Virus record (IMG/VR): IMGVR_UViG_3300042453_001855
Span: 1-27,779 of that record
Strand: one strand, 5' to 3'
Source of the DNA: a virus
DNA: 27,779 bases
The translations under genes and the position numbers were made by a program. Position 1 is the first letter of the stretch, and every line of letters begins with the position of its first letter. Below are positions 3,232 to 20,281 of the stretch, one piece after another. Below the pieces are notes generated by a model that was given only the letters and a program-made list of their open reading frames with translations, was not told the DNA's origin and did no database searches.

Positions 3232-3235
3232 AAAT

Positions 3236-3310
3236 TGGAGGCGGGGGGTGGAGTTGAACCACCTACCTGAAGCTTATGAGACTTCTGTGCAACCATTACA
3301 CTTCCCCACG
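3236..3310 (-). tRNA. tRNA-Met(CAT), initiator-like acceptor
   Basis: Anticodon loop CTCATAA; an encoded CCA (3236-3238) fixes the 3' end. The acceptor is CGTGGGG/CCCCGCC, so positions 2-7 pair and position 1 is an unpaired C1xC72. An unpaired 1-72 position and the CGxGGGG...CCCCGC sequence are hallmarks of bacterial initiator tRNA. The anticodon stem (GAAGT/GCTTC) lacks the three G-C pairs of a classical initiator. Could be an initiator or a hybrid Met tRNA. Confidence 0.9.
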
Positions 3311-3374
3311 ATGAAGGGTTAAGTGTGATACACCTCATCAGGATGTAACAGGGACTCAACCTCCAACAATTTAT

Positions 3375-3403
3375 ATATTAAGGTATTTCCAAGAGTTTGT
3401 CAA
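3375..3403 (-). promoter_or_regulatory. Sigma70-type promoter with inverted repeat, before tRNA-Met
   Basis: TTGACA (3398-3403), 17-bp spacer, TAATAT (3375-3380). The 8-bp inverted repeat AAGGTATT/AATACCTT (3380-3387 with 3402-3409) spans the whole promoter core. It lies just downstream of the HNH gene and restarts transcription of the distal tRNA block. Confidence 0.8.
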
Positions 3404-3430
3404 TACCTTTGAACCAGTTTAAAAAGTGTC

Positions 3431-3901: not shown

Positions 3902-3938
3902 TTTCCTATCACACCTCTATTGATATTTAGATTTAAAA

Positions 3939-4013
3939 TGGCACCCTGAGAGGGATTTGAACCCCCGACTTCTTCGTTCGTAGCGAAGCACTCTTCCACT
4001 GAGTTACCAGGGC
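3939..4013 (-). tRNA. tRNA-Arg(ACG)
   Basis: Acceptor GCCCTGG/TCAGGGT with discriminator G and encoded CCA. Anticodon loop CTACGAA, T arm GGGGG-TTCAAAT-CCCTC. Needs A34-to-inosine editing by host TadA to read all CGN codons. Confidence 0.93.
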
Positions 4014-4014
4014 G

Positions 4015-4089
4015 TGGCGAAGGGTGAGGGATTCGAACCCCCATCGCAAGGTTTTGGAGACCTGCATCTTACCATTAGACCAACCCAAC
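4015..4089 (-). tRNA. tRNA-Trp(CCA) with acceptor mismatches
   Basis: Anticodon loop CTCCAAA, discriminator G and encoded CCA as in Trp tRNAs. With the 3' end fixed by CCA, the acceptor GTTGGGT/ACCCTTC has U2xU71 and U3xU70 mismatches. The other arms are normal apart from a C27xT43 mismatch. It may be functional with a weak acceptor, or decaying. Confidence 0.85.
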
Positions 4090-4093
4090 AAGG

Positions 4094-4166
4094 TGTCCGT
4101 GAGAGGATTCGAACCTCCAACACCTACCCCCTCAAGGTAGTGCCTCTTCCATTGGGCTACACGGAC
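4094..4166 (-). tRNA. tRNA with Leu anticodon GAG but class-I shape
   Basis: All stems are perfect: acceptor GTCCGTG/CACGGAC, anticodon stem CTACC/GGTAG, T arm GGAGG-TTCGAAT-CCTCT, discriminator A. The loop TTGAGGG gives GAG (Leu). The variable region is only GTGTT, whereas bacterial Leu tRNAs have a long variable arm. Amino-acid identity is therefore uncertain. Confidence 0.8.
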
Positions 4167-4170
4167 TTAG

Positions 4171-4242
4171 TTCCAGAACTAGGATTCGAACCTAGATGAA
4201 CGCCTTCAAAGGGCGGTGTCCTGCCAGTTAGACGATTCTGGA
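4171..4242 (-). tRNA. tRNA-Gln(TTG)
   Basis: T1-A72 acceptor TCCAGAA/TTCTGGA, anticodon loop CTTTGAA, T arm CTAGG-TTCGAAT-CCTAG, discriminator A. No encoded CCA. Confidence 0.93.
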
Positions 4243-4247
4243 ATAGG

Positions 4248-4323
4248 AGTTCAGGGTGGGATTCGAACCCACGATGATAGAAGTTTTGCAGACTTCCGCA
4301 TTCGACCACTCTGCCACCTGAAC
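4248..4323 (-). tRNA. tRNA-Cys(GCA)
   Basis: Acceptor GTTCAGG/CCTGAAC with discriminator T, anticodon loop CTGCAAA, T arm GTGGG-TTCGAAT-CCCAC. Confidence 0.94.
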
Positions 4324-4327
4324 AAAG

Positions 4328-4399
4328 AGCCCTCAGTGAGAATCAAACTCACGACCTCATTCTTACCAAGAATGCGTTCTATCACTGAACTATGAGGGC
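4328..4399 (-). tRNA. tRNA-Thr(GGT)
   Basis: Acceptor GCCCTCA/TGAGGGC, anticodon loop TTGGTAA. The T loop is TTTGATT instead of TTCGAAT (C56 replaced by T). Second Thr tRNA of the array; separated from tRNA-His by two bases. Confidence 0.92.
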
Positions 4400-4401
4400 G
4401 G

Positions 4402-4472
4402 GGTGACGTATGGGAATTGAACCCATCTGGGCGGTTCCACAAACCGCTGCCTTACCACTAGGATAACGTCAC
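4402..4472 (-). tRNA. tRNA-His(GTG)
   Basis: Acceptor GTGACGT/ACGTCAC with discriminator C, anticodon loop TTGTGGA, T arm ATGGG-TTCAATT-CCCAT. The base before G1 is T, so the usual His-specific G at -1 is not encoded in this register. Confidence 0.92.
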
Positions 4473-4473
4473 A

Positions 4474-4547
4474 TAGCAGTAGGTGGATTTGAACCACCGT
4501 CCATAGGAATATGAGTCCCGTACTCTACCAGACTGAGCTATACTGCC
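4474..4547 (-). tRNA. tRNA(CAT), elongator Met or Ile2
   Basis: Acceptor GGCAGTA/TACTGCT (G1-T72), anticodon loop CTCATAT, discriminator A. It could be elongator Met, or an Ile tRNA whose C34 is changed to lysidine by TilS. Sequence alone does not decide. Confidence 0.9.
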
Positions 4548-4551
4548 AAGG

Positions 4552-4634
4552 CGGAAGATGTTGGATTCGAACCAACGGAGGTTTTACCCTCACGGTTTAG
4601 CAAACCGCTGCATTAACCGCTCTGCCAATCTTCC
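4552..4634 (-). tRNA. tRNA-Ser(GCT)
   Basis: Acceptor GGAAGAT/ATCTTCC with discriminator G, anticodon loop TTGCTAA and a long class-II variable arm (GAGG...CCTC), as expected for Ser. Confidence 0.94.
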
Positions 4635-4647
4635 ATATCGTAGGTGT

Positions 4648-4731
4648 ATCATTTGAGAGGATTTGAACCTCCATTGCCGCCCTCCAAAACGCAAGTGCTA
4701 TGGCGGAGTGTTACCGTTACACTACAAATGA
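4648..4731 (-). tRNA. Pro-like tRNA (TGG) with a 20-nt anticodon loop
   Basis: Acceptor TCATTTG/CAAATGA, D arm GTGT/ACAC, T arm GGAGG-TTCAAAT-CCTCT and an anticodon stem CCGCC/GGCGG are all intact. The anticodon loop is 20 nt, ATAGCACTTGCGTTTTGGAG, instead of 7. Its last seven bases TTTGGAG would form a normal loop with anticodon TGG, implying a 13-nt insertion just 3' of the 5' stem strand. A normal tRNA-Pro(TGG) is present at 5218-5291. It may be a damaged copy, a decoy, or need processing. Confidence 0.65.
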
Positions 4732-4947
4732 TATCCTTACGTTGCTTACTCCTAGATTCTACTCATCAGATTTACTTGTTGGACCTAATCGTTGGAATAC
4801 TCGCTGCGTTCAACTTATTACCCTGTCTCGACTTGAACGAGACTGTTTTCTATAGCCTTTGCGTTTGTTAGTAATAAGCATACTGACAGGTTTCTTTTAC
4901 CTTTCAGTTTTCCGTTCAACCCAACTTTGGAATAAAGTTTGGGCAAG
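4732..4947 (-). ncRNA. 216-nt spacer with hairpins, no gene seen
   Basis: Between tRNA-Ile and the Pro-like tRNA. It contains GTCTCG/CGAGAC near 4827-4845 and CCCAACTTT/AAAGTTTGGG at about 4920-4944. No ORF has a convincing ribosome-binding site and no promoter match was found. It may be a processed leader or spacer RNA. Confidence 0.3.
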
Positions 4948-5019
4948 TGGAACCGACAAGATTTGAACTTGTGACCGCACCCTTATCAGGGGTGTGCTCT
5001 ACCACTGAGCTACGATTCC
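4948..5019 (-). tRNA. tRNA-Ile(GAT)
   Basis: Acceptor GGAATCG/CGGTTCC, anticodon loop CTGATAA, T arm ACAAG-TTCAAAT-CTTGT, discriminator A. Confidence 0.95.
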
Positions 5020-5140
5020 ATCAAGGTAGGAGTCGATATCAACAACCTACCAGTTTCAGTTTTCGGACTGAAAAACCTATCACTAACCAACCGAAGTTTC
5101 ATAACGGAGGAAGTGAATCTCCGTGACCATAAAGGTCAAG
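5020..5140 (-). ncRNA. 121-nt spacer with four hairpins
   Basis: Stems seen: GGTAGG/CCTACC (5025-5051), TTCAGT/ACTGAA (about 5055-5072), CGGAG/CTCCG (about 5105-5123) and TGACC/GGTCA (5124-5138). No ORF or promoter recognised. Similar in style to the other tRNA spacers. Confidence 0.3.
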
Positions 5141-5214
5141 AGGGAACAATCGGATTTGAACCGATAACACCATGATCTTCAATCATGTGCTCTACCAATT
5201 GGAGCTATGTTCCC
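5141..5214 (-). tRNA. tRNA-Phe(GAA)
   Basis: Acceptor GGGAACA/TGTTCCC, anticodon loop TTGAAGA, T arm ATCGG-TTCAAAT-CCGAT, discriminator T. Confidence 0.94.
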
Positions 5215-5217
5215 AAG

Positions 5218-5291
5218 TCCAGATGAAAGGATTTGAACCTCCGACTTCTCCGCCCCAAACGGAGCGCTCTACCAAACTGAGCTACACCTGG
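5218..5291 (-). tRNA. tRNA-Pro(TGG)
   Basis: Acceptor CCAGGTG/CATCTGG, anticodon loop TTTGGGG, T arm GGAGG-TTCAAAT-CCTTT, discriminator A. Canonical 7-nt loop, unlike the Pro-like tRNA at 4648-4731. Confidence 0.95.
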
Positions 5292-5292
5292 T

Positions 5293-5367
5293 TGGTATTC
5301 CTGAAGGGATTTGAACCCTCGTTTCCGCCTTGAAAGGGCAGCGTCCTAACCATTAGACGACAGGAAC
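5293..5367 (-). tRNA. tRNA-Glu(TTC)
   Basis: Acceptor GTTCCTG/CAGGAAT, anticodon loop CTTTCAA, T arm GAGGG-TTCAAAT-CCCTT, discriminator A and encoded CCA (5293-5295). Confidence 0.95.
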
Positions 5368-5373
5368 ATGATG

Positions 5374-5463
5374 AGAAAGACACCCCACACGAAGTCACTT
5401 ATGGATTACGCTTCGTAGCCTTATGAATCCTGCCATCATCCGATGGTGGTTAGAATGTCTTTC
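5374..5463 (-). ncRNA. Multibranched structured RNA candidate between tRNA-Asp and tRNA-Glu
   Basis: A segment of about 90 nt is closed by an 8-bp stem GAAAGACA/TGTCTTTC. Inside it are CCATC-GGAT-GATGG and GGATT...AATCC, and an ACGAAG that could pair with a downstream CTTCGT as a pseudoknot. It is not a tRNA. The following 5464-5565 holds another stem CGTCAT/ATGACG and no gene. Function unknown. Confidence 0.4.
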
Positions 5464-5565
5464 CCCAATTCCAGTTCTTGCTACGTCATTCCTTACCTAA
5501 CTGGCAACATTCAGGATGACGTGCTACAACCACCAAGGAGGGACACTCCATCGGCAGCGTAGCAA

Positions 5566-5638
5566 CGACCCTAACGGGATTCGAACCCGTGATACCACCG
5601 TGACAGGGTAGCGTGATAGACCACTTCACTATAGGGTC
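5566..5638 (-). tRNA. tRNA-Asp(GTC)
   Basis: Acceptor GACCCTA/TAGGGTC with discriminator G, anticodon loop CTGTCAC, T arm ACGGG-TTCGAAT-CCCGT. Confidence 0.95.
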
Positions 5639-5684
5639 AAGAGCACAATCCACTACCAATGGTATCATTGGGCAGATTATGCAG

Positions 5685-5773
5685 TGAGAGAAGAGGGAAT
5701 TGCACCCCCAACGGTTCTTATGTAACGCTTTTACAGAGCGCCGCCACACATATCTAATAGTAGCCTTTCTCCC
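5685..5773 (-). tRNA. tRNA-Tyr(GTA), divergent D and T loops
   Basis: Acceptor GGGAGAA/TTCTCTC, anticodon loop CTGTAAA and a class-II variable arm, as in bacterial Tyr tRNA. The T loop is TGCAATT (G55 instead of T55), and the D loop TATTAGATATGT has no GG pair. These are the partners of the D-loop/T-loop contact, and both are altered. Confidence 0.85.
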
Positions 5774-5776
5774 AGA

Positions 5777-5844
5777 TAGGTTCAATTGAGTTACGGCACT
5801 GAAGAGCATTAGATCTCCCCCAAGAGTCCGTTTCAAGAGAACCT
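5777..5844 (-). ncRNA. Structured spacer between tRNA-Lys and tRNA-Tyr
   Basis: AGGTTC and GAACCT near the two ends of the spacer pair across about 60 nt, with ACGG/CCGT nested inside. No ORF or promoter. Same closed-element style as other spacers. Confidence 0.3.
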
Positions 5845-5846
5845 AA

Positions 5847-5918
5847 TGGGACATCTCGGATTCGAACCGAGGACTAACCGGTTAAAAGCCGGATACTCTA
5901 CCGCTGAGTTAATGTCCC
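5847..5918 (-). tRNA. tRNA-Lys(TTT)
   Basis: Acceptor GGGACAT/ATGTCCC, anticodon loop CTTTTAA, T arm CTCGG-TTCGAAT-CCGAG, discriminator A. Confidence 0.95.
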
Positions 5919-5944
5919 ACATAATATGGATAAATATTCGGTTG

Positions 5945-5986
5945 TCTAGGTTCTTGGTCTCTCGACCACTTGGCTAATGTACCACC
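5945..5986 (-). pseudogene. Possible truncated tRNA 5' half
   Basis: On the minus strand the segment begins like a tRNA: GGTGGTA, then CA, then TTAGCCAAGTGGTCGAGA resembling a D arm. No matching T arm or 3' acceptor follows. It may be a decayed class-II tRNA. Weak call. Confidence 0.25.
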
Positions 5987-6035
5987 GTTTGGTCTCTGGG
6001 GAGGGACTGGTGGACACTTAGGAAACTGTCACAGA

Positions 6036-6075
6036 CAATAAAAAAGGGGAGGAAACTTTTGGTTTCTCTCCCCTT
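6036..6075 (-). terminator. Rho-independent terminator after the 32-aa ORF
   Basis: Long stem built of AAGGGGAG-GAAAC and GTTTC-T-CTCCCCTT (one bulged T), 5-nt loop. On the minus strand it is followed by TTTTTTATTG. It ends the transcript that starts at the promoter 6223-6251, so the tRNA block below needs readthrough or its own promoter. Confidence 0.85.
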
Positions 6076-6100
6076 CTTTTGCTTTTATGAATTAAACATC

Positions 6101-6199
6101 TTACATATGTCTATCCATATCCGCAAACAGGGGAGCACCCTCAATATGCCAATAACGGCAATCAAGAATGGTAAACTGTTTGGGCATTGGGTAAGACAT
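6101..6199 (-). CDS. 32-residue small protein in the tRNA array
   Basis: ATG at 6199, stop TAA at 6101-6103. The peptide starts MSYPMPKQFTILD and ends GAPLFADMDRHM. AGGT lies 8 nt before the ATG. A strong promoter ends about 24 bp upstream and a strong terminator begins about 25 bp after the stop, so this is a complete monocistronic unit between tRNA-Arg(TCT) and tRNA-Lys. No signal peptide or membrane segment is seen, and the family is not recognised. Confidence 0.6.
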   Translation of the reverse strand: MSYPMPKQFTILDCRYWHIEGAPLFADMDRHM

Positions 6200-6220
6200 T
6201 GTTTTCGACCTAAGTGTTAT

Positions 6221-6251
6221 TATTTATAAGACTTTTTTGTTAAAAAGTCAA
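6221..6251 (-). promoter_or_regulatory. Overlapping early and late promoter of the 32-aa ORF
   Basis: TTGACT (6246-6251), 17-bp spacer, TATAAA (6223-6228). The -10 is part of TATAAATA (6221-6228), the T4 late-promoter consensus. The unit could be read both by host sigma70 and by a gp55-type late sigma factor. Confidence 0.7.
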
Positions 6252-6252
6252 G

Positions 6253-6326
6253 CGCCTCAGGCAGGATTCGAACCTGCGGCCAACCGCTTAGAAGGCGGAT
6301 GCTCTAGTCCACTGAGCTACTGAGGC
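6253..6326 (-). tRNA. tRNA-Arg(TCT)
   Basis: Acceptor GCCTCAG/CTGAGGC with discriminator G, anticodon loop CTTCTAA, T arm GCAGG-TTCGAAT-CCTGC. First tRNA of the array, just after a consensus promoter. Confidence 0.95.
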
Positions 6327-6343
6327 ATATTTGGTATGTAGTT

Positions 6344-6372
6344 ATTATAGTGGGGGAAGGGTTTTCTGTCAA
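6344..6372 (-). promoter_or_regulatory. Consensus sigma70 promoter of the tRNA array
   Basis: TTGACA (6367-6372), 17-bp spacer, TATAAT (6344-6349): 12 of 12 consensus bases. A 10-bp stem GGGAGGGGTT/AACCCTTCCC (6354-6380) with the loop inside the -35 overlaps it. The stem may end the upstream lysozyme transcript or act as an operator. Expected start near 6337, about 10 bp before tRNA-Arg. Confidence 0.88.
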
Positions 6373-6393
6373 CCCCTCCCTCCTATTTAATTG

Positions 6394-7041
6394 TTAAACT
6401 TCTACCTTGATCAGACGGGATGCATAATCATGAGCATACGAAGTGCGAGCACCATGATGCCCCCAACCAATCCAACTATACGCATAGTCCATGTAACGAT
6501 TGATGGATTTACCAGGAGTTTTCATCCTGTCCTCAATTTCTTTCCATTGGACTTCATTCGTAAGATAACGAAGTTGCGTGTGAAGTGTTGATGGCGAACC
6601 ACCAAACCTCTTAGCAAAATCACCCAATCCATAATAACGATTGGCAGATGTCCATTGAATCAGTCCGTAACCGCCACCGCAGTTACTCCAACTGGTTCTG
6701 CTACCACCTTCACAAATGTTAGGAATAAAAGTTGATTCCTGACGAATATTACCCATAATGGTAGCAAGGGCGTTTCTGTCTTTAATACCACGATCCTGGA
6801 AATATGCCAGGGTAGCATTCTCATGTTCATTACACCCTTTACAAATAAGCCTTTTCTCTTTTGACTTTTCTGGTGCAACCTCGCGGATTGCTGTCTTTGA
6901 TGTAGGCTCCTCCTGAATAATACTGAAAGGTGGTTGTTTTGGACCTTCAACAGGTGGAGGAGGAAACACTTGGGGCAGTGTTGCCGTTGTGGTTGTAACC
7001 ATTGCTGCGAGAGGAACGGCTACTGTAAAGAAATTTTGCAT
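6394..7041 (-). CDS. Phage tail-type lysozyme with N-terminal anchor
   Basis: 215 residues. The N-terminus (MQNFFTVAVPLAAMVTTTTA) looks like a signal or anchor. A Pro-rich linker follows to about 65, then a lysozyme-like domain: ALATIMGNIRQESTF (E102 as likely catalytic Glu), GGGYGLIQWTSANR and a C-terminal YSWIGWGHH. These are features of the phage tail lysozyme family, which cleaves peptidoglycan during DNA entry. GGAG sits 5 nt before the ATG, and the ATG overlaps the stop of a 27-aa ORF (TAATG), suggesting translational coupling. Whether it is a virion-borne or a lysis enzyme is not decided by the sequence. Confidence 0.8.
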   Translation of the reverse strand: MQNFFTVAVPLAAMVTTTTATLPQVFPPPPVEGPKQPPFSIIQEEPTSKTAIREVAPEKSKEKRLICKGCNEHENATLAYFQDRGIKDRNALATIMGNIRQESTFIPNICEGGSRTSWSNCGGGYGLIQWTSANRYYGLGDFAKRFGGSPSTLHTQLRYLTNEVQWKEIEDRMKTPGKSINRYMDYAYSWIGWGHHGARTSYAHDYASRLIKVEV

Positions 7042-9985: not shown

Positions 9986-11005
9986 ATGTCTAGACTCGGG
10001 ATCAACACTGGTAACAATCCTAATGATGGTCAGGGCGATCCATTGAGAGTTGCAATGGGTAAAATCAATAGCAACTTTTTAGAACTTTATAGTACCTTAG
10101 GAGATGGTTTTACATTATCCAGTTACGTAACAACTGCAGGAATTTCCACTCTCGCTCAAGGTTTAACTGGAAATCCAAGAATTAATGTTAGTGGTATTTT
10201 AAATACTGGAATTACAACCACAGAACACATTGAAGTAAGAAATATAACATCAACTGGAGTTGTTACTGCAACTCAATTTGTCGGTGATGGGTCTCAACTC
10301 ACTAATGTTACTGCACTTGTTGGTGGATTAGAAGTATTGGATAATAATGTTAGAAAGGGTGTTGCGAGAGAACTTAATTTTGGTGATAACATAGAGTCAA
10401 CTGGCCCAGATGGAGTGGGAAGGGTAACTATTTCAGTTTCTTCAAGTATTGGAAGTAGTTCATTTACTGGTGCGGCTTCAACAATTACCACCACTCAGAT
10501 CTCTAATTGGAATACTGCATATAGTTGGGGTAATCATGCTTCTGCTGGATACTTGACAAATGTTAATATCTCTGCAGGTGCAAACATAGCCGTAGTAGAA
10601 ACCTCTGAAGGAAATTTTATTATTACTGCAACTTCTTCAGGTAGTGTTGGATCTGCAGGAACTTGGGCAGTTAATGCATCGGGTATTCATACATCTAAAA
10701 ATGTTGGTATTGGAACCACTGTTGCGAGTTCCGCTCTAACAGTAGAAGGTGATGGTAGATTCAGTGGAGTCGTTACTGCAACAAGATTTGAGAGTACTTC
10801 TTCAGGAACTCCAACAATTGATTCTCCAAATAACTTAAATATTAATGCAATTAATGTTGCAATAAGCACCGATATAACTATAGGCAGAGACGCTTATGTT
10901 GGTGTAAATACATCAAGTGGTCTTGTACTAACTTCACCAAATGGAACTCAATATAGATTAGTAGTTGACAATTCAGGAAACCTCAGCACAGTTTTAGTAC
11001 CGTAA
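9986..11005 (+). CDS. Tail-fibre-like structural protein
   Basis: 339 residues opening MSRLGINTGNNPNDGQGD and KINSNFLELYSTLGDG, the N-terminal module of many cyanophage fibre proteins (also at the start of the 17459-20281 protein). It is followed by beta-rich repeats such as GVVTATQFVGDGSQLT and VGIGTTVASSALTVEGDGRFSG, and ends YRLVVDNSGNLSTVLVP. Such proteins form thin trimeric fibres that contact the host surface. Start supported by GAGGA. One base separates its stop from the protease gene, so the pair is co-translated. Role in adsorption is inferred. Confidence 0.85.
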   Translation: MSRLGINTGNNPNDGQGDPLRVAMGKINSNFLELYSTLGDGFTLSSYVTTAGISTLAQGLTGNPRINVSGILNTGITTTEHIEVRNITSTGVVTATQFVGDGSQLTNVTALVGGLEVLDNNVRKGVARELNFGDNIESTGPDGVGRVTISVSSSIGSSSFTGAASTITTTQISNWNTAYSWGNHASAGYLTNVNISAGANIAVVETSEGNFIITATSSGSVGSAGTWAVNASGIHTSKNVGIGTTVASSALTVEGDGRFSGVVTATRFESTSSGTPTIDSPNNLNINAINVAISTDITIGRDAYVGVNTSSGLVLTSPNGTQYRLVVDNSGNLSTVLVP

Positions 11006-11006
11006 A

Positions 11007-12950
11007 ATGACTCTCAAAAAATATACAATTAAAGTAACAGAAGAACAATATTGGCAGGAGATTCATGATCTTCTGTGTACTACAACTTCATGTGAACATA
11101 TTCCCGACAGAGATGTATCTTGTTTCAATGAAATGGATCATAGTCCAACTAGAGGAACTTTTGTTCTTCATGGACATGAAGCGGAAAGTTTAAAGAATCA
11201 TCCATATATTGAATGGATTGAACTAGATCCATCCGAATATCCAGAAGAATATCCAAAACCATCACACTATATTAAAAGATGGGGAAAAAATGTAAAAGTT
11301 TATAGAGATCTTGATATTAATGCTCCAGTGTCAACGGGAGCAACCGTTGGTGAGTTGAATAGAACTGGTTGGCAAATCGTAAGAAGTGGAATAAGAACTA
11401 ATACAGAAGCTTGGGGAACTACAACGGGAAATCCTGTAGCTATTCTGAGTGATGCAAGTTACAGTTTAACAGGAAAAAATGTAGATGTAATTATTCATGA
11501 CTCTGGAGTTCTTCAATATCATCCAGAGTTCATGGATGAAAATGGGCAATCCAGAGTTAGGGATATTGTTTTAGATGGCCCATATTATATTGACCCAGAT
11601 TATTTTGATAATGTAATTCCTGCAGTTAAGTATACAAAACCTGATGGTAGAGTTGGAATTGCAACTACTTCTGCAAGAGATTGGTGGATAAATTCTTCAA
11701 AAAGATCTGCTGGATTTTCTACCATAGGTACTGTATCGGTCCCCACTAACTACACGGTTCCAAATTGTCTAGGAACGGATTTGATTGGAAGTAACACCAT
11801 AGGCAATGGTCATGGAACAGCTTGTGCATCATTGACTGCTGGAAAAAATCTTGGACTTGCATTTGAAGCTAATATTTGGAACATGTCTGGTATTGGAGAT
11901 CCAACTTCAATTACTATTGAACAAAATTATGATTTAATGAAAATATTTCATCTATACAAACCAATCAATCCGGAAACAGGAAGAAAAAATCCAACAGTTG
12001 TAAACGGAAGTTGGGGATATCAAGCTGCGTTTTTATCCAATAGTACAGTAACTTATAGATTTAGGGGAACTACTGGAACATTTCTTGGTAATGCATCAGT
12101 CACAGATCAAGTAACTGCAATGAAGAGTGGATTGAATAATCAAGTTTCTGGTGCATTCGAATCATGGTCTTCATCATCCAGATCTTTATCGACTGATGAA
12201 GCTGGAAAAGAAATGATGGATGTTGGAGTAATTTATGTCGCTGCTGCTGGAAATAATAATCAAAGATTGGGTGTTGGGTCTACCGATCCAGATAAATTAA
12301 ACTATATGTCAGATAATTATTTTGGAACTACTGATCCGAGATCACATTTCCCATCGAATTGTGTTCCATGCAATCATAGAGATTGGATGAATCCACAAGG
12401 CATTGGATTCAGTTCCACAACTGATGCAGAATTCCATCCCGTCATTTGTGTTGGTGCTATGGATGAGTATATTCTACTTGGGAATGAGGAGTATGCTGCA
12501 ATCTACGGTGAAAGAAAAGCATCATACTCCAACAATGGACCTGGAATTGATGTGTGGTCTCCTGCAGATGAAACATTTGCTGCAGGAACAAATGGAGTAT
12601 CTGGATATGTTGATTATCAGAGATATGATAATTCCAATTTTTATGATTGTTATTTTAACGGAACTAGTGCAGCATCACCTGTTGCTTGTGGATTAGTTGC
12701 ACTTTATCTTGAATCAGACCCCACAGCATCATCAAGAAAGGTCAAATCTTGGTTGAAGAAACATGGATCTGTTGGAGTATCAACCCTTCAATATGCAGAT
12801 CAATACCCAGATGATACTACAACTACTTATTGGACTGGTTCTTTTAATATGAGAGATGCTGAGAGAAGAATACTTTATAATCCTTTTGCAAATGATACAA
12901 AACCAACTATCAGTGGCATTCAAATAACAGGAGTCAACATAAAAATTTAA
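11007..12950 (+). CDS. Subtilisin-family (S8) serine protease
   Basis: 647 residues with the S8 triad in order: D165 in VIIHDSG, H269 in GNGHGTACASL, S554 in NGTSAASPVACG, plus the oxyanion Asn N416 in VAAAGNNN. The first 100 residues (KYTIKVTEEQYWQEIHDLL...PYIEWIELDP) resemble a subtilisin prodomain, which would fold the enzyme and then be removed. No signal peptide. The family hydrolyses peptide bonds. It follows a tail-fibre gene by one base, so it may ride on the virion and process fibre proteins or degrade host surface proteins. The enzyme family is certain from motifs; the target is inferred. Confidence 0.93.
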   Translation: MTLKKYTIKVTEEQYWQEIHDLLCTTTSCEHIPDRDVSCFNEMDHSPTRGTFVLHGHEAESLKNHPYIEWIELDPSEYPEEYPKPSHYIKRWGKNVKVYRDLDINAPVSTGATVGELNRTGWQIVRSGIRTNTEAWGTTTGNPVAILSDASYSLTGKNVDVIIHDSGVLQYHPEFMDENGQSRVRDIVLDGPYYIDPDYFDNVIPAVKYTKPDGRVGIATTSARDWWINSSKRSAGFSTIGTVSVPTNYTVPNCLGTDLIGSNTIGNGHGTACASLTAGKNLGLAFEANIWNMSGIGDPTSITIEQNYDLMKIFHLYKPINPETGRKNPTVVNGSWGYQAAFLSNSTVTYRFRGTTGTFLGNASVTDQVTAMKSGLNNQVSGAFESWSSSSRSLSTDEAGKEMMDVGVIYVAAAGNNNQRLGVGSTDPDKLNYMSDNYFGTTDPRSHFPSNCVPCNHRDWMNPQGIGFSSTTDAEFHPVICVGAMDEYILLGNEEYAAIYGERKASYSNNGPGIDVWSPADETFAAGTNGVSGYVDYQRYDNSNFYDCYFNGTSAASPVACGLVALYLESDPTASSRKVKSWLKKHGSVGVSTLQYADQYPDDTTTTYWTGSFNMRDAERRILYNPFANDTKPTISGIQITGVNIKI

Positions 12951-12985: not shown

Positions 12986-13177
12986 ATGCCAAGAGAGTGG
13001 AACACTCCAAAGAGGGAGTGTTGGAATGCTCCTATCCACCAAATACTGAAGGCAATAGACAATCATACCCGTCTCTGGTTAGAGACGGGCGATTATTGGC
13101 ATGAAGATCAAGCAAATATATTAAGACAATATTTACGAGATTTGAAAACCTGGATTCATAACCAAGAATGTCGTTAA
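12986..13177 (+). CDS. 63-residue hypothetical protein
   Basis: Basic, Trp-rich small protein (MPREWNTPKRECWNAPIHQI, LWLETGDYWHEDQ), predicted helical. Own late-type site upstream. Converges on the lysozyme gene with a 4-bp overlap at the 3' ends. Its compact, low-gap sequence looks like a conserved phage protein, but I cannot assign a function. Confidence 0.7.
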   Translation: MPREWNTPKRECWNAPIHQILKAIDNHTRLWLETGDYWHEDQANILRQYLRDLKTWIHNQECR

Positions 13178-13788
13178 GATATCCAGAGTTTACCTTCGGC
13201 TTTTCTTCTTCTAAGTAATCCTGTTTCTACACTGCTACCAGGATTACGATAAAGTTCTAACGTTTTTGGAACCTCATTCCATTTTTTTTCTCTAAGAATT
13301 CTGGTTATGGTATTAAAACCGGAACTCCCGTAAAAACTAGCACCAAGATTATAAGCAAAAGATAAAAGAGTTCCTTGTTGATTTTCATTCATCTCATTCC
13401 AATAAGGGATCTTTTGTAAGGCAGGAAGAAACTCACGACGAAGTTGAAAATACAAAAGATCGTCTGCTTCTTCTTGTGTAATTGTATTTCCAATCATAAA
13501 ACGAGATCCATCTTTTCTACGAGTACTTCCCCATCCAATAGTAATAGGAAGTCCACCAGTAAGGGGATCATAATAAGCCTTAAGATGACATCCCTCAAAT
13601 TCTTTAATTAATTCAATACCTGGTTCTGGAATACCCTCAAAAGTTGGTTCTATTTTTTGATTACGATATCTTCTTGCAAATTCATCGAGAATTTCTTTAT
13701 GAACTGATGCTTGAAGAAAACTCCAAGCATCATTTTGATGTGGAAGATCCTTATGATTTTTTACTGCGTCAATAAACTTAATAGTCAT
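13174..13788 (-). CDS. GH24 (T4-type) lysozyme / endolysin
   Basis: 204 residues from the ATG at 13788, which overlaps the preceding stop as ATGA; an in-frame ATG six codons earlier is less likely. The catalytic region reads IKEFEGCHLKAYYDPLTGG and PITIGWGS, giving the GH24 Glu (E65), Asp (D74) and Thr (T83) seen in T4 lysozyme. LLSFAYNLGAS and LLRRRKAEGKLW match the C-terminal lobe. The enzyme cleaves the MurNAc-GlcNAc bond of peptidoglycan. No signal peptide, so release would need a holin. An N-terminal extension of about 55 residues precedes the domain. Cotranslated with a C39-like peptidase. Confidence 0.92.
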   Translation of the reverse strand: MTIKFIDAVKNHKDLPHQNDAWSFLQASVHKEILDEFARRYRNQKIEPTFEGIPEPGIELIKEFEGCHLKAYYDPLTGGLPITIGWGSTRRKDGSRFMIGNTITQEEADDLLYFQLRREFLPALQKIPYWNEMNENQQGTLLSFAYNLGASFYGSSGFNTITRILREKKWNEVPKTLELYRNPGSSVETGLLRRRKAEGKLWIS

Positions 13789-14465
13789 GAAAAAATACGC
13801 CCCCAACCATCATTACCTGCAGGGCACCATCTGCGAGAGAGATCTGAACGCTTGTAGACCGCGCCTTTACCGTTGGACACGGCACCAGTATACCCGTCAT
13901 TGAGGCTGCCGTAGGGGTCATTGACGACATAATCGCCTGCAGGGGTCTTACCGATCACTACAACCATGTGGCCACCAGTAGGTGCAGATAAAGGGCCACG
14001 ATGGAGAATCCCAATAACAATGGGTTTGTTGTTAGATAGTTCACGATCAAGATCGTTAAAAGTAAGATTGTAACTGAAACGTGAAGACACACCATAATCT
14101 TGTAGAACACGGGTTTGAACCCCATGATCTGTTGTATCACCAATTGCGAATACTTTTTGAATATAAGCATCATCGCCTTTTGGTCCTTTTAATGTGCCTG
14201 GTTTAAAGTACTCAAGACACATCGCACAAGCAGAAGAGTTGCAAGTCCTATTTGCATCTCTATAATTATCTGTCTGTGGATAAAACGGAACGTCAAGAAT
14301 ATTATTTTTTGGTGGTTGAACTTTAGTTCTATATATCTTCACCCATTCTGCACTATCATCAAGAAACAATCCAGGTAAAGTATCTTCAAGAATCTGGACT
14401 GCCCTTACATGGTTAGGGTTTTTATCATCGTAAAATTTAAAAAAGTTGTGAAGATCAATTTTCAT
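13785..14465 (-). CDS. C39-type papain-like cysteine peptidase
   Basis: 226 residues. VPFYPQTDNYRDANRTCNSSACAM is typical of Peptidase_C39_2, with C75 the likely nucleophile. H166 in GGHMVVVIG and N182/D183 in VVNDPYG complete the triad. The order Cys-His-Asp/Asn and the repeated GGH and NDPYG motifs identify the fold. Overlap by ATGA with the lysozyme suggests a lysis module in which it cuts peptide cross-links while the lysozyme cuts glycan; cleavage of a protein substrate is the alternative. Starts divergently from the HExxH gene. Confidence 0.82.
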   Translation of the reverse strand: MKIDLHNFFKFYDDKNPNHVRAVQILEDTLPGLFLDDSAEWVKIYRTKVQPPKNNILDVPFYPQTDNYRDANRTCNSSACAMCLEYFKPGTLKGPKGDDAYIQKVFAIGDTTDHGVQTRVLQDYGVSSRFSYNLTFNDLDRELSNNKPIVIGILHRGPLSAPTGGHMVVVIGKTPAGDYVVNDPYGSLNDGYTGAVSNGKGAVYKRSDLSRRWCPAGNDGWGRIFS

Positions 14466-14507: not shown

Positions 14508-15122
14508 ATGTTTAAAAAAAGGTTATTTATAAAAGGAAATTTCAGACCTCTTTATACTATGTCTATTCCAAAATATTGTGATCAAATATGGTATAAAGAT
14601 AATCCAGACAAAAATATAGAAATTGCAAAAACCATTTTAGAACAACACAACATAAAAGTATTTGTGTATGAAGAGGATTCTGGTACAAGAGCCCATTCTG
14701 TAGTCGGAATGCCACAAGTGTTCTTAAATAAAAGACATAGGTTTTGGATCGACCCATATAAGGTATCTCTTGAAACCAGGAGAAGTGGGCGAATGTCTAC
14801 AAGCAATCCAATGGGTGTTATTTATCATGAAATTGCTCATACAAAAGATCGATATAATTTATCAAGATCAAGAAAAGACAATTTACAGTGGAAAGATTTA
14901 TCCGATATAGAAGTTGCCGGAAGAGTTAGTAAGTATGCAACAATGAACCCAGTAGAGTTTGTTGCAGAAGTATACGCTGCCCTAAAAACAGGGCGTAGAT
15001 TTGATTATCAAGTTATGAAGTTGTATATGCAAGAATCTGGTCGGAATTGTCAACGAGTAAAATCTCTTAATTCTGGAAAATTAGATTCCACCCACTCCAC
15101 AGCAGATGCAATTAAAGGATAA
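14508..15122 (+). CDS. HExxH-containing protein (putative zinc metallopeptidase)
   Basis: 204 residues (187 if the ATG at 14559 is used; neither start has a good ribosome-binding site). VIYHEIAHTKDRYN carries the zinc-binding HExxH motif, and NPVEFVAEVYAALKTG downstream offers a third Glu ligand, as in gluzincin-type peptidases. No signal peptide. It is the only plus-strand gene in this neighbourhood and its last 73 bp overlap, antisense, the end of the sulfotransferase-like gene. It may act on peptidoglycan or on virion proteins; not identified. Confidence 0.75.
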   Translation: MFKKRLFIKGNFRPLYTMSIPKYCDQIWYKDNPDKNIEIAKTILEQHNIKVFVYEEDSGTRAHSVVGMPQVFLNKRHRFWIDPYKVSLETRRSGRMSTSNPMGVIYHEIAHTKDRYNLSRSRKDNLQWKDLSDIEVAGRVSKYATMNPVEFVAEVYAALKTGRRFDYQVMKLYMQESGRNCQRVKSLNSGKLDSTHSTADAIKG

Positions 15123-15739
15123 GACATAGATTTTTCTGTCTCCACAATTCCATAATTATTATGAACTTCTATTATAGAAGACCTATTAGGGTAGGTTATA
15201 GGATCTCCTTGACCATTTATTCTTGCAGATTTCACATCTATTTTAGTAAATCTTAAATCGGGTTCACCACTTAAACCAAAGTATCCTATAACTTTTGAAG
15301 CAGTTGTTTGGGGATCTAAAAATAAATCATTAGAACGAATAAAATATGCATCCATTGATAACGCTAAATTAACTTGCTTTACCCATGCAGCAGCAAAAAA
15401 TTGAGTTGAACCATTATACTCATCTTCACCCACATATTGTTTAATTGTGAATGCCCTATTGGTAAGCCAATCTTTATCCAGTGCCCTATACTTTAATAAA
15501 TGTTGAGATAATGGTCTGTAAAGAAATACTTTTGGGCCTGAAGAAATATGGTGAAAAATTGTAAGAGATGGAAATTTAACAATTGCACCGTCTCTTGCTT
15601 CTGGAATTGGATCTCCATTTTCCCAAAAATCTCTACACCAATTTGGTTCGGCAAAAGATGGAGCAACACTAGATAATAAAGATGTTAGTAGTGTCGATCC
15701 ACAACGGGCAGTATGGTAAATTGATCGTATGGTATACAT
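15050..15739 (-). CDS. Sulfotransferase-like protein
   Basis: 229 residues. YHTARCGSTLLTSLLSS (10-23) is the 5'-phosphosulfate loop that binds PAPS; KVFLYRPLSQ (about 70-80) resembles the strand carrying the 3'-phosphate-binding Arg. SNDLFLDPQTTASKVIGYFGLS is typical of the C-terminal half. These enzymes move sulfate from PAPS to a sugar or a tyrosine. Lies 8 bp after a 2OG-oxygenase gene at the end of the tail-fibre operon, so fibre or host-surface modification is possible but not shown. Confidence 0.78.
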   Translation of the reverse strand: MYTIRSIYHTARCGSTLLTSLLSSVAPSFAEPNWCRDFWENGDPIPEARDGAIVKFPSLTIFHHISSGPKVFLYRPLSQHLLKYRALDKDWLTNRAFTIKQYVGEDEYNGSTQFFAAAWVKQVNLALSMDAYFIRSNDLFLDPQTTASKVIGYFGLSGEPDLRFTKIDVKSARINGQGDPITYPNRSSIIEVHNNYGIVETEKSMSYPLIASAVEWVESNFPELRDFTR

Positions 15740-15747
15740 AGGTTAAA

Positions 15748-16368
15748 TTATAAGATTTTAGATTTAGGTTGACCCAAAGCAAATTGGGTTATTGCATATC
15801 TTCCTCTACCAGACCAATAATCGTTTTCAGCAATTTTAACACGCTTTACTGCATGATCAACATAACTTGGCATAAAGATTGCAGTATTATTTAATGCCTT
15901 AAATTCATAATCATATTCTTCAAAATAAAGTTCTCCACCTTCAAAAGATTTTGGTTCTTTGTGTAGATAAAAAAACATTAAATATTCTTGGGAAGAATCA
16001 GTATGAGTTTGATATTCATCGCCATCATGATAATAACGAAGTTTTGTAGAGATTTCAGAAAGATTTCGTGCTCTTGTAAAACATTTCCATTTATCTGCTG
16101 CATTTTTTCCCAAGGTTCTTGTGACATCAGTAATAATGCTGATTATATCAGATACCTGAGGTCTGGCATAAATTGCCTCTAGAATCGCAGCTCTACTATT
16201 AGTATATCCTCCCAATCCACCAGCGCCGTGATCAATCCCAGGTCGATTAAGTTTTTCTGGTGAAGAGAGAAAACGAACTTCTTGCCATATCAAATCCAGT
16301 TCATCAGAAGATAAAACATTTTTAACAGTTATGTGTTTGAATGGTTCTTCATGAAATGTTAGTTCCAT
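15748..16368 (-). CDS. 2OG-Fe(II) dioxygenase (prolyl-hydroxylase-like)
   Basis: 206 residues. The iron triad is H122 and D124 in YQTHTDSS and H172 in YVDHAVKRV; R190 in GRYAITQF is placed to bind 2-oxoglutarate. Strands EGGELYFEE and TAIFMPSYVDHAV give the double-stranded beta-helix. The family hydroxylates protein side chains, nucleobases or small molecules using O2 and 2-oxoglutarate. The first codons overlap the preceding 85-aa gene by 10 bp, so both are cotranslated within the tail-fibre operon. Substrate unknown; fibre proteins are a plausible target. Confidence 0.9.
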   Translation of the reverse strand: MELTFHEEPFKHITVKNVLSSDELDLIWQEVRFLSSPEKLNRPGIDHGAGGLGGYTNSRAAILEAIYARPQVSDIISIITDVTRTLGKNAADKWKCFTRARNLSEISTKLRYYHDGDEYQTHTDSSQEYLMFFYLHKEPKSFEGGELYFEEYDYEFKALNNTAIFMPSYVDHAVKRVKIAENDYWSGRGRYAITQFALGQPKSKIL

Positions 16369-16616
16369 ACGAATTCATCACCAATAAAGACATCATTTTC
16401 TCTATCGTATTTACCACCGATGATGGCATATTCTCCACGAAAATTTGCATTGATGCTAGTTTGAACATACTTGCAATTAGATCCACAAATTCCTTCTAGA
16501 TATGCAATTCCTTTGGATTCGTTTTCAGTACCATCAGGTTCCAAAATTACATCGTTGTCAACAACTACAACATTAATTACTTGATCATTTTCATCAAGTT
16601 GTGCAAAGTGTGCCAT
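16359..16616 (-). CDS. 85-residue tail-operon protein
   Basis: Start chosen at ATG 16616 (MAHFAQLDENDQVINVVVVD): it follows AGGTTA and lies 4 bp after the glycine-rich gene; a longer frame to 16682 overlaps that gene. The MAHFAQLDENN-type opening recurs near tail-fibre genes in cyanophages as far as I recall. Two Cys in GICGSNC may bind metal or form a disulfide. Function unknown. Confidence 0.75.
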   Translation of the reverse strand: MAHFAQLDENDQVINVVVVDNDVILEPDGTENESKGIAYLEGICGSNCKYVQTSINANFRGEYAIIGGKYDRENDVFIGDEFVWN

Positions 16617-16620
16617 AAGA

Positions 16621-17457
16621 TTAACCTGTATAAACAAAAGTACCAGTACCAGTAAAACTGTGAAAAAAATAATTGGTTCCACCTACGGTTCCAGTATAAG
16701 TAGAACCCCCTGTTCCTCTCGATGTTGAACCAAGATAACGAACGATAACTAGACCAGACCCTCCAGATGCATTCCATGAAGTATCGGTAAAATTTGCTTG
16801 AGCTCCAACCCCAGAATTTGCCAATCCTGGTGTAACCGAATTTCCATTTGCACAAGATCCACTATTAAATAAAGCACCACCACCCCCAGATGCAAGCCAA
16901 AAATTAGAACCACCATCAAATGTAGACCTATTATATCCAGATCCGCCAACTCCTGAAACAGTATTGTTGGATCCAGTTCCTCCTCCTGCACCTTTACCCC
17001 CACCTCCACCAGAAGAAAATAAAGCAGAATTTCCACCATTATTACCTTGTCCAGAAGTTCCAGATTTACCAGATGTAGTTGAATTCCTATATGCATGTCC
17101 ACCAGCACCTGATCCACCTGTACCAGTGGAAAAATGATAACCAGAACCTCCCCCAGTGACACCACCTATATTAGAACCATTGGGAAATGTTCCTACAAGA
17201 GTATTTCCCCCAGCTCCCGTCCCAGATCCAGCACCACCAATAGTCAAATAAATTGTATTATTTGGTTGCATTAGATATGAATTGATAATATTAAGTCCAC
17301 CTGCTCCGCCTCCTCCACCGGGTTGATACACTGGTAATATGACATCATCATCAGCAATATCAGCAGTACGAAGTGATGATGTTCCACCACCCCCCGCTAC
17401 CATGAGAATATCAATTTGTAGTAGTCCTGATACAAAAAATGATTGTATAATAGACAT
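16621..17457 (-). CDS. Glycine-rich tail-fibre adhesin-like protein
   Basis: 278 residues from ATG 17457, one base after the stop of the long fibre gene. After SIIQSFFVSGLLQIDILMVAGGGG it carries many short polyglycine runs (GGGGGAGG, GGGSGYHF, SGGGGGKGAGGG) separated by variable stretches, ending in a beta-rich TGTGTFVYTG. Alternating Gly-rich and variable segments recall T-even gp38 adhesins, whose Gly loops present host-range-determining segments. Cotranslated with the long fibre, it may be its tip. Relationship by architecture only. Confidence 0.7.
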   Translation of the reverse strand: MSIIQSFFVSGLLQIDILMVAGGGGTSSLRTADIADDDVILPVYQPGGGGGAGGLNIINSYLMQPNNTIYLTIGGAGSGTGAGGNTLVGTFPNGSNIGGVTGGGSGYHFSTGTGGSGAGGHAYRNSTTSGKSGTSGQGNNGGNSALFSSGGGGGKGAGGGTGSNNTVSGVGGSGYNRSTFDGGSNFWLASGGGGALFNSGSCANGNSVTPGLANSGVGAQANFTDTSWNASGGSGLVIVRYLGSTSRGTGGSTYTGTVGGTNYFFHSFTGTGTFVYTG

Positions 17458-17458
17458 A

Positions 17459-20281
17459 TTAAGATAACCCCGCTCCAAATATTACAAAAGTATTAGATCC
17501 AACGCAAAGGACAGTACAAACACCTCTAGCTGACAAAGTTCTATTTCCTGTTGCTCCAGTTCCCGCCAAATACATGGTTACTGAACCACCCTGAGTAATA
17601 GTTTGATTGCCTGATGAATTATTATATATAGACACTGCATCACCAGCACTGAATATGCCAGAGTTAACTGTAACTCCACCAGTGGTGATAGATATATGCT
17701 TTCCAACATCCGTTGCAGCAAGAATATATGCGGAGGTTTGAGCATTTTGTGGAACATCCCTTACATTACCAATACTATCATTTACAGTAGTTGCAGTTAC
17801 AACACCGACTGATATTCCATTTGATGTACTATTACCTCTATTGGTAACAGAGTTTAAAGTATCAGTTTCAGTATAAGAAGTTAGATAAGTATTAGAATCA
17901 ACGGAACCATCAGCTTTTAAGAACTGACTTGAAGTTCCACCAGATTTAATAAATCCAGAAGCACCGATTGTTCCACCAGCAGACACATAACCAGTTAAAC
18001 TAATATTACCACTATTATCAAGAACAGTAAAAGCATTATTCAATGAAGAATCTAAATTACCTCCCAATAACAATCTTCCACCATAATCGACAATTATTTT
18101 TTTATCGTATAAATTTACATTAGGTGTAGATATTGTAAATATTTCAGCACTAGCGGATGTTGTGGTATTGATGATATCAATACCAGCATCAGTTCCAATA
18201 GAACTACCAAGTACCATTCTTCCAAAAGAACTGATTGAAACATATTCATTTCCGCCAACTAATGGTCTAATACTAATTCCATCTCGATGTGTTGTGATAC
18301 CAGAAATATCTAATTTTTTACAAAATAATATCTCTCCAGTTACGGTAGTAATACCGGAGAATGTAGCGCCACCTGTTACATTAATTCCATTTGGGCCAAT
18401 AGTTGTTACTCCAGCTACTCTTAGTTCATCACCAATAGTAACATCGGTACTAATAGCGACTGTTATAGCATTGATATTTAAGTTGTTTGGGGAATCAATA
18501 GTTGGAGTTCCTGCAGAGTCACTTTCAAATCTAGATGCAGTTACGATACCACTGAATCTCGCATCACCTTCTACAGTTAGAGTAGAACCCGCAACAGTAG
18601 TTCCAATACCAACACCAGTTTCAGTTACTCTGATTTTTTCGTTTTCAATTAAAGTATCGCCAACAAAGAATGATAGGTGTTTGTTTGCAGCTGCAACTCC
18701 AATGGATAGATTGGAATCGGAAGTATATAAGTATGCATCAAGAGCACCACTAATTGTCCAAGAGGATGTTGAGAATCCACTATTATTGATACCTATATTA
18801 ATAAAGTTTGAAGAATCATCTCCAATATCTGCAGTAATAACTAAGTCACCAGAAGCACTCGGAGCAGAAAGAGAATTTCTAATATTAACTTGACCATATC
18901 CATCAACGCTCGAAGTGAGATCTGCGATGGCATTTTCTAGTCCAGATGTGATTGTTGCGCCTACACCACTAACAGTTAATCTGTAAGGTGGGTTACCTGC
19001 AGTGCTTCCAATACCTATAGAGTCATTGATTGCAACTCCATTTTGGAATGTTTGAAGTTTTAGAACACTATTGTAATATAACTCTACGCCGGCATCAACA
19101 TTAAATGCAGCCATTAATCCAGCACTTGGGCTGCCAGCATATCTTCTAAATTGAATACCTATTCCGTCATCTCGGATGACTAAGTTGTTTGTGCTAAAAT
19201 TATCAATATAACTATTCAACCCATCATTAAAGATTTGGAGTTCAGCGTTATCTCCAAAAATTGCAGCTCTACTATCTTTAATATAAACGTTATTTGTAAA
19301 AGTAGAAAATCCTGATACAAAAACATCACCATAAACACTTAGGTCTGCTGGTGGATTCGTGGTTCCTATACCAACATTAGAAAGTGTGTGAATACCAGCA
19401 GATGTTGATACCCAATAGGATTCTTCACCTCCACCTGCTGCACCAGTAATTGTAGCAATGCCGGAAGAATAAGATACTGATAGATTGTCTCCAAAATTAA
19501 TTGTTGAGGCAGTTCCTACTATAGAATTATCATCTCTAATTTCAACCCCAGATCCAGTAGCAACTACTCCCGTAATCCCAGAACCATCACCAATAAATTG
19601 TGTAGCGGTAACAACACCACTAAATCTTCCGTCGCCTTCTATAGTTAATGCAGAACTTGCAACTGTAGTCCCTACTCCAACACCACCAGAACTTATTATA
19701 ATGTCTCCAGGAGCAGTTAAAGTTGCATCAGGTTTAAATCTCCATATCTTATCACCACCAGATAATATAGTTACTTCACTATCACTAACTGTTAAGCTAT
19801 ATGTACCAGTACTATTTGCAAGTCCAACCCATCCTCCAGCAACTGCAGTGAATTCCAGAGAAGATGGATTGTAAATGGATGGTTTTATTGTAACATTGTT
19901 CAGAAAAGTTAAACTTCCATCAATTCCAAATGTATAAGGACTTGGCCCTCCAGGGCCAACCATAGTTATTACTAGGTCATTATTCAATCCAACAGTTATT
20001 TCACCAGTTGTAATACCAATTCTATTAAAGGTTACATCATTGGTGGTATTTAAATCTTGATCAAATACCGAAATATTTGATATTGCTTCATCAACATATC
20101 CAGTCGTCGCATATCCAACTAAATTACCAGAAGTTACGATTCCAGTAAATAAATTATTTCCGTCGCCAAGTGTAGAATAAATTTCCGAAAAATTATCATT
20201 TATTTTTATGGCACCAGAAAGTAAGGAATCCCCAGTTCCATCATTAGGAGTTATACCGGTATTAATGCCCTGCCTTGCCAT
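17459..20281 (-). CDS. Long tail-fibre-like protein
   Basis: 940 residues opening MARQGINTGITPNDGTGD and IKINDNFSEIYSTLGDG, homologous to the plus-strand fibre. Repeated modules follow: VGVGTTVASSALTIEGDGRFSG (about 205), VGIGTTNPPADLSVYGD (about 305), VGIGTTVAGSTLTVEGDARFSG (about 560), with SPNNLNINAI segments shared with the first fibre. The end (GGTSSQFLKADGSVDSNTYLT, then a Gly-rich CVGSNTFVIFGAG) is typical of phage and gene-transfer fibre tips. Late-like CTAAATA at 20311-20317 precedes it. Probably trimeric and host-contacting. Confidence 0.88.
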   Translation of the reverse strand: MARQGINTGITPNDGTGDSLLSGAIKINDNFSEIYSTLGDGNNLFTGIVTSGNLVGYATTGYVDEAISNISVFDQDLNTTNDVTFNRIGITTGEITVGLNNDLVITMVGPGGPSPYTFGIDGSLTFLNNVTIKPSIYNPSSLEFTAVAGGWVGLANSTGTYSLTVSDSEVTILSGGDKIWRFKPDATLTAPGDIIISSGGVGVGTTVASSALTIEGDGRFSGVVTATQFIGDGSGITGVVATGSGVEIRDDNSIVGTASTINFGDNLSVSYSSGIATITGAAGGGEESYWVSTSAGIHTLSNVGIGTTNPPADLSVYGDVFVSGFSTFTNNVYIKDSRAAIFGDNAELQIFNDGLNSYIDNFSTNNLVIRDDGIGIQFRRYAGSPSAGLMAAFNVDAGVELYYNSVLKLQTFQNGVAINDSIGIGSTAGNPPYRLTVSGVGATITSGLENAIADLTSSVDGYGQVNIRNSLSAPSASGDLVITADIGDDSSNFINIGINNSGFSTSSWTISGALDAYLYTSDSNLSIGVAAANKHLSFFVGDTLIENEKIRVTETGVGIGTTVAGSTLTVEGDARFSGIVTASRFESDSAGTPTIDSPNNLNINAITVAISTDVTIGDELRVAGVTTIGPNGINVTGGATFSGITTVTGEILFCKKLDISGITTHRDGISIRPLVGGNEYVSISSFGRMVLGSSIGTDAGIDIINTTTSASAEIFTISTPNVNLYDKKIIVDYGGRLLLGGNLDSSLNNAFTVLDNSGNISLTGYVSAGGTIGASGFIKSGGTSSQFLKADGSVDSNTYLTSYTETDTLNSVTNRGNSTSNGISVGVVTATTVNDSIGNVRDVPQNAQTSAYILAATDVGKHISITTGGVTVNSGIFSAGDAVSIYNNSSGNQTITQGGSVTMYLAGTGATGNRTLSARGVCTVLCVGSNTFVIFGAGLS

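Follow-up and report, generated by a model that had tools for sequence, protein, structure and literature searches.

The 2OG-Fe(II) oxygenases of cyanophages (PHROG 61, PF13640, T4-like cluster 611) have been described as scattered moron genes, with nine copies in S-SZBM1 (PMC9146016), and those located beside uvsX/uvsY have been proposed to act as DNA repair enzymes (PMC2984593). Neither of these papers describes a sulfotransferase as a partner of the oxygenase. Phage sulfotransferases have also been reported, their function being unclear (PMC10580990). Here we describe a 27.8 kb fragment from a virus record (hereafter the window), kin of the T4-like cyanophages, in which a member of this oxygenase family with intact iron-site residues directly precedes a divergent sulfotransferase-like gene. 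The closest described relatives of the window by DNA are S-SCSM2R, DSL-LC03, DSL-LC02 and S-SRM01, at ~78-81% identity over short stretches only.

A sequence-only reading of the window had proposed that oxygenase and sulfotransferase-like ORFs lie 8 bp apart behind a fibre gene, a glycine-rich gene and an 85-aa gene. All five were found on the minus strand as described (Table 1), the three upstream genes being identified by PF07880, PF21722 and PHROG 7759. The five genes are nearly gapless, with 8 nt between oxygenase and sulfotransferase and a 10 nt overlap of the 85-aa 'MAHF' gene with the oxygenase start. A convergent gene overlaps the 3′ end of the sulfotransferase by 73 nt; it is also found in L121/L201 (in L121 at 6303-6872, minus strand) and is probably context, outside the module. 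One contig found in two samples (L121/L122) keeps the fibre, glycine-rich gene, small gene, oxygenase, sulfotransferase and convergent neighbour, with protein identities to the window of 63% for the oxygenase and 54% for the sulfotransferase. Because the whole block is kept at this divergence, the oxygenase and sulfotransferase are genes and not chance ORFs.

Table 1. Coordinates and features of the gene block in the window.
Feature	Coordinates	Strand	Description
Convergent neighbour	14508..15122	+	only weak Pfam matches, below cut-off
Divergent PAPS-sulfotransferase-fold protein (predicted)	15050..15739	-	229 aa; putative PAPS-binding loop HTARCGSTLL, residues 9-18; E31-P32; R75-x7-K83
2OG-Fe(II) oxygenase (predicted)	15748..16368	-	206 aa; cyanophage cluster T4-GC 611 type; H122-x-D124...H172 and R190 intact
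85-aa 'MAHF' gene	16359..16616	-	PHROG 7759, 84 bits
Glycine-rich fibre-tip or adhesin-like protein, candidate substrate	16621..17478	-	PF21722 Gly_rich_2, 48.5 bits
Tail fibre with T4 gp9/10-like N-terminus, candidate substrate	17459..20281	-	940 aa; PF07880, 33 bits; PHROG 677, 68.9 bits

Several other features of the window were observed. A PstS-like phosphate-binding protein, read by eye, is encoded at 1-917 (-) and is open at the window edge. It adjoins a full SLH-domain porin (1030-2508, -) with 77% protein identity to the S-SRM01 porin, putatively an outer-membrane porin that the phage encodes next to a phosphate gene. The region 2645-6326 (-) contains 22 predicted tRNA genes that between them serve most amino acids, and many of the short ORFs called there are no more than translated tRNA sequence. 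At 9986-12950 (+) a second fibre, again with a gp9/10-like start, stands directly before a subtilisin-like protease (PF00082, 69.7 bits); in S-SCSM2R, too, an S8 peptidase comes after a large adhesin-like gene. Lastly, two overlapping ORFs at 13174-14465 (-) encode a C39-like peptidase and a phage lysozyme. Each matches one half of PHROG 3617 (positions 1-232 and 246-404), and they represent either a frameshift or a two-domain endolysin divided between separate genes.

The window oxygenase matches PF13640 (2OG-FeII_Oxy_3) with 37.6 bits, above the curated cut-off of 27. Its iron ligands H122, D124 and H172 are found in 14/14 diverse relatives, while R190, the 2-oxoglutarate arginine, is present in 13 of the 14 and replaced by lysine in the other. 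The suggestion that this gene encodes an Fe(II) hydroxylase thus agrees with both the profile match and the intact iron triad, and the enzyme is predicted to be active in this sense. Members of the family occur in 116 phage records at <60% identity, and the cyanophages examined carry up to 13 PF13640 matches per genome. The closest relative in the phage collection comes from Marine virus AG-345-L05, where no sulfotransferase adjoins it.

Direct searches with the 229-aa protein gave no match in Pfam, including Sulfotransfer_1 and Sulfotransfer_3, nor in PHROGs, NCBIfam or PDB sequences. No credible match was found in phages by tblastn, and searches of plasmids, viral contigs and genome contigs found nothing. 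Relatives were reached by taking two oxygenases, that of the window and its relative from AG-345-L05, as queries against viral contigs; these worked where a combination of 14 diverse oxygenases was too divergent. Comparison of the ORFs in these oxygenase loci with the 229-aa protein gave six homologues, each directly downstream of an oxygenase homologue. An alignment of the six was then used to scan the viral collection for the sulfotransferase alone, giving 60 loci; no member of the family was found in cultured phages. Among 33 relatives, three match Sulfotransfer_1 (best E 3.8e-6) and two match Sulfotransfer_3 weakly (0.077). Moreover, jackhmmer started from the window protein reached phage Sulfotransfer_3 proteins in the first profile round (E = 1.4e-6). 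AlphaFold with the 33-sequence alignment gave a model with pLDDT 93.2 and pTM 0.91, and a PDB fold search of this model returned 28 matches at E<=1e-3, of which 27 are PAPS sulfotransferases (best 5.2e-6), including Teg12, Teg14, StaL, CurM, 3-OST, TPST-1/2 and SULT2A1. The modelled fold has the central sheet and the strand-loop-helix for PAPS binding that are expected of the sulfotransferase superfamily. TM-scores to the solved sulfotransferases are moderate, at 0.38-0.55, and the best match in a viral structure library is the S-SCSM1 sulfotransferase. The PAPS-dependent sulfotransferase proposed from sequence thus holds as to class through the profiles of relatives and the predicted fold, with no direct family match. 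We regard the assignment of the 229-aa protein to a divergent PAPS-sulfotransferase-fold family as well supported by relatives and modelled structure.

A number of leads were discarded along the way. An AlphaFold model of the single window sequence (pLDDT 35) was useless. A Caballeronia plasmid match (E = 0.1) proved to be the antisense of a katG-like ORF, and both it and interferon-receptor matches in PDB were judged to be chance. An Actinomycetota Sulfotransfer_3 protein from a genome motif scan shares 14/16 residues around the loop, but 10 of these had been chosen by the pattern, making this a weak lead. Finally, an hhalign profile comparison (A6 vs A1) reached only 43% probability over 35 columns near the C-terminal 'NDLF..P' stretch.

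Residues invariant in the 33 sequences are G14-S15-T16, L22, E31-P32, G68, F72, R75 and W119. The 5′ phosphosulfate-binding loop of sulfotransferases is expected to carry K/R-x-G, which is R-x-G in Sulfotransfer_3, and the 3′-phosphate motif of Sulfotransfer_1 is RXXXDXXXS (PMC11625862). The window protein has the expected loop, as R12-C13-G14-S15-T16, with arginine at position 12 where 24/33 relatives have histidine. The R...S motif is absent: R75 is found in 33/33, but the residue at +8 is lysine in 28/33 and serine in 1. E31, also in 33/33, is a candidate catalytic base at a plausible position after the loop. The protein therefore appears sulfotransferase-like by its modelled fold, yet it fails one defining feature of the textbook families and is placed in no Pfam family. 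It is improbable, in our estimate, that the protein is instead a P-loop enzyme of another kind, or that its sulfotransferase-like fold is that of a pseudo-enzyme. The missing 3′-phosphate serine and direct family match would fit such a protein, as would the P-loop proteins that follow in the fold list, the ATPase Fap7 being the sole non-sulfotransferase among the 28 significant matches. Against this are the 27 others, the invariant loop, R75 and E31, and the APS-kinase-like neighbours described below. The 229-aa protein is predicted to be a catalyst that uses PAPS as donor.

The pairing of the two genes is our strong result. It was counted in the scan with the sulfotransferase alone, which was not conditioned on the oxygenase, although the first homologues had come via oxygenase neighbours. 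A 2OG oxygenase ends <=150 nt upstream of the sulfotransferase in 58/60 loci, often overlapping its start by a few nt, and in 31/33 loci after removal of redundancy (<85% identity). By comparison, a 2OG gene is upstream in 23/351 (6.6%) other same-strand adjacent pairs from the same loci. All ORFs were called by a simple script. The loci are phylogenetically non-independent, and the contigs are fragments that partly represent one phage in several samples; the binomial figure of 9e-35 for the pairing ignores this shared ancestry and is indicative only. The two exceptions are L226, with no oxygenase near, and L259, at 179 nt. The tight pairing proposed from the window is supported, and it recurs in relatives. 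The paired oxygenases fall into two types, that of the window and a longer one that sits in cyanopodovirus-like contigs with psbA-like genes nearby, and more than one type of phage carries the pair. Furthermore, divergence in one protein tracks divergence in the other (Mantel r = 0.85, p = 0.0002, 25 pairs). Across dozens of uncultured phages from water, oxygenase and sulfotransferase are found as a pair.

The dependence is one-sided. Only 1/60 sulfotransferase loci lacks a nearby oxygenase, whereas 74/80 oxygenase loci lack a sulfotransferase and 6/80 have one. Independent occurrence of the genes in relatives had been named in advance as evidence against a joint function; it does not apply to the sulfotransferase, but does to the oxygenase, which cyanophages commonly carry with no sulfotransferase. 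Such an asymmetry is expected if the sulfotransferase needs a hydroxyl made by the oxygenase, and we take it as evidence, not proof, for the order of reactions. The high share of solitary oxygenases, together with the proposed repair role of 2OG genes beside uvsX/uvsY (PMC2984593), would also suit a view of the pair as accessory genes with nothing in common but their place at an operon end, where the oxygenase serves in DNA repair or another separate role. We consider this highly improbable given an oxygenase directly upstream in 31/33 loci against 6.6% in controls, the involvement of two oxygenase types and the co-divergence. Moreover, neither uvsX, uvsY nor any other repair gene adjoins the pair in the window, where the fibre, glycine-rich and MAHF genes stand instead.

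A natural series of gains and losses is seen at one genomic slot, consisting of PhoH, a Cas4-like gene and a small gene followed by the gp32 region. When L226 (3305-4021) is set beside L208, L217, L222 and AG-345-L05 (L002), this slot holds oxygenase and sulfotransferase, sulfotransferase alone (L226) or oxygenase alone (AG-345-L05).

The order fibre, glycine-rich gene, MAHF gene, oxygenase, sulfotransferase recurs in divergent contigs. The glycine-rich gene is kept in the block of relatives, and the MAHF gene occupies the same position in L201-L206, L214-L216, L223 and L228-L236. Both lie upstream in 6/6 oxygenase loci with a sulfotransferase, representing about three or four lineages, as opposed to 0/74 without. 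The MAHF gene was dropped as an exclusive marker of the module, since it also occurs with fibres in isolates with no sulfotransferase annotated nearby. By reading of gene orders, ~21/33 non-redundant loci are in fibre or tail regions; the remaining 12 comprise seven in the PhoH/Cas4/gp32 slot and five in the portal/scaffold region of cyanopodoviruses. The idea that the pair is always linked to fibres was consequently abandoned, and a fibre target is not general. These 12 contexts, and the scattering of 2OG oxygenases as morons with nine in one genome (PMC9146016), would be explained if the pair acted on a small molecule or host protein, such as a signal, lipid or defence factor, the fibre neighbourhood being a common insertion slot. 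We judge this unlikely, because in fibre-type loci the enzymes are mostly only ~30-50% identical to those of the window and the five-gene order is still kept, beyond what a random slot needs.

Decoration of the host surface or of a phage-directed glycan (lipopolysaccharide, capsule or a fibre-linked sugar), which might for instance block superinfection or aid release, deserves some weight but is on balance rather unlikely. The related sulfotransferase of S-SRM01 sits with a glycosyltransferase and an epimerase, those of AG-345-L05 and its relatives sit with glycosyltransferases, the pair is also found away from fibres, and carbohydrate sulfotransferases, 3-OST among them, account for several fold matches. 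However, no glycosyltransferase is near the pair in the window, and the conserved partners in fibre-type loci are structural and not sugar genes. A tail-tip structural protein is our best guess for the target in the window phage, the genomic slot alone being no proof of this.

We also considered the supply of sulfate. APS kinase makes PAPS (PMC9774471), and a small APS-kinase-like gene is found just downstream of the sulfotransferase in 11/60 loci (7/33 non-redundant). Four of these downstream kinases were scanned, and PF01583 was their best family at 31-49 bits (cut-off 21.1), covering the N-terminal part only. The podovirus-like contigs L224, L237, L242-L244, L256, L259 and L260 show two successive 2OG genes followed by the sulfotransferase and the APS-kinase-like gene. 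There is no APS-kinase-like gene in the window, and so PAPS would be supplied by the host.

The explanation we favour, with about even confidence, is a modification module of two enzymes, transferred as one unit among aquatic phages, that carries out hydroxylation followed by sulfation. The oxygenase would use iron, 2-oxoglutarate and O2 to hydroxylate a sugar or side chain, after which sulfate would be moved from PAPS to the new hydroxyl by the sulfotransferase. PAPS would be provided by the host or, in certain relatives, by the phage APS-kinase-like enzyme made beside the sulfotransferase. In the window phage the likeliest target would be a product of the same operon, namely the fibre, the small MAHF protein or the glycine-rich protein of the tip, and the virion would gain fixed negative charges at the point of cell contact. 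The folds, the conserved iron-site residues, the pairing, the co-divergence and the one-sided dependence are results of the analysis; PAPS as donor, catalysis, reaction order and target are inferred. More tentatively, the module may perform a two-step protein modification of a tail-tip side chain, in which a hydroxyl is followed by sulfate added by a dedicated new family, in some phages with its own APS-kinase-like PAPS supply; the result, possible but short of probable, would be a sulfated residue, distinct from sulfotyrosine, by which host recognition is tuned.

The original claim that no system of this kind has been described is in line with the literature searched, in which we found no paper that joins phage, sulfotransferase, tail fiber and oxygenase. 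These loci add a sulfotransferase family that is missed by current family models. A sulfotransferase almost never found without an oxygenase is a testable clue to the role of at least one cyanophage 2OG family, namely to provide a hydroxyl for sulfation. If a fibre protein is the target, the virion surface would be sulfated, a chemistry not described in the literature searched, and this would bear on host recognition as well as on the modelling and making of virion proteins.

Among known systems, the phage Sulfotransfer_3 proteins of S-SRM01, S-SCSM1, S-SKS1 and OM43 phages (PMC10580990) are distant kin of the window family by iterated profile and fold, and some of their genes likewise come after a fibre and a 2OG-like gene. 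Two stretches within 18 kb of AG-345-L05 each show a Sulfotransfer_3 gene preceded by a 2OG-like gene and, before that, a fibre, and the order fibre, 2OG-like gene, sulfotransferase occurs for this family in both marine and freshwater contigs. A fibre-like gene lies within two genes in 30 of the 45 non-redundant Sulfotransfer_3 loci with enough flank (control 29%), and a DUF6445 gene with HxD and WHSH motifs is directly upstream in 8/45 (control 4.1% for any 2OG-like gene). Hence a second, only distantly related sulfotransferase family has a similar fibre layout, more loosely. In a set of marine and freshwater phage contigs (L036, L093-L115), large repeat fibres alternate with DUF6445, PF13640, Sulfotransfer_3, glycosyltransferase and carbamoyltransferase-like genes, as if forming a fibre-decoration cassette. 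The phage Sulfotransfer_3 proteins are nevertheless a different family, with 260-320 aa, a GLPRSGSTLL loop and a direct Pfam match, whereas the window family is shorter and carries HT(A/S)(R/H)CGSTLL, E-P-x-W and R-x7-K.

Tyrosylprotein sulfotransferases and the bacterial RaxST-RaxX system transfer sulfate from PAPS to protein and thereby tune partner recognition, as described for RaxX (PMC6637879). TPST-2 is among the best fold matches of the window family model. These enzymes use an existing tyrosine hydroxyl, whereas the acceptor hydroxyl in the window is proposed to be the product of the partner oxygenase. The best solved fold matches of the family are the glycopeptide antibiotic sulfotransferases Teg12, Teg14 and StaL, which sulfate molecules already tailored by other enzymes. 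They belong, however, to bacterial small-molecule secondary metabolism, and share 12-15% identity with the window family in the fold alignment.
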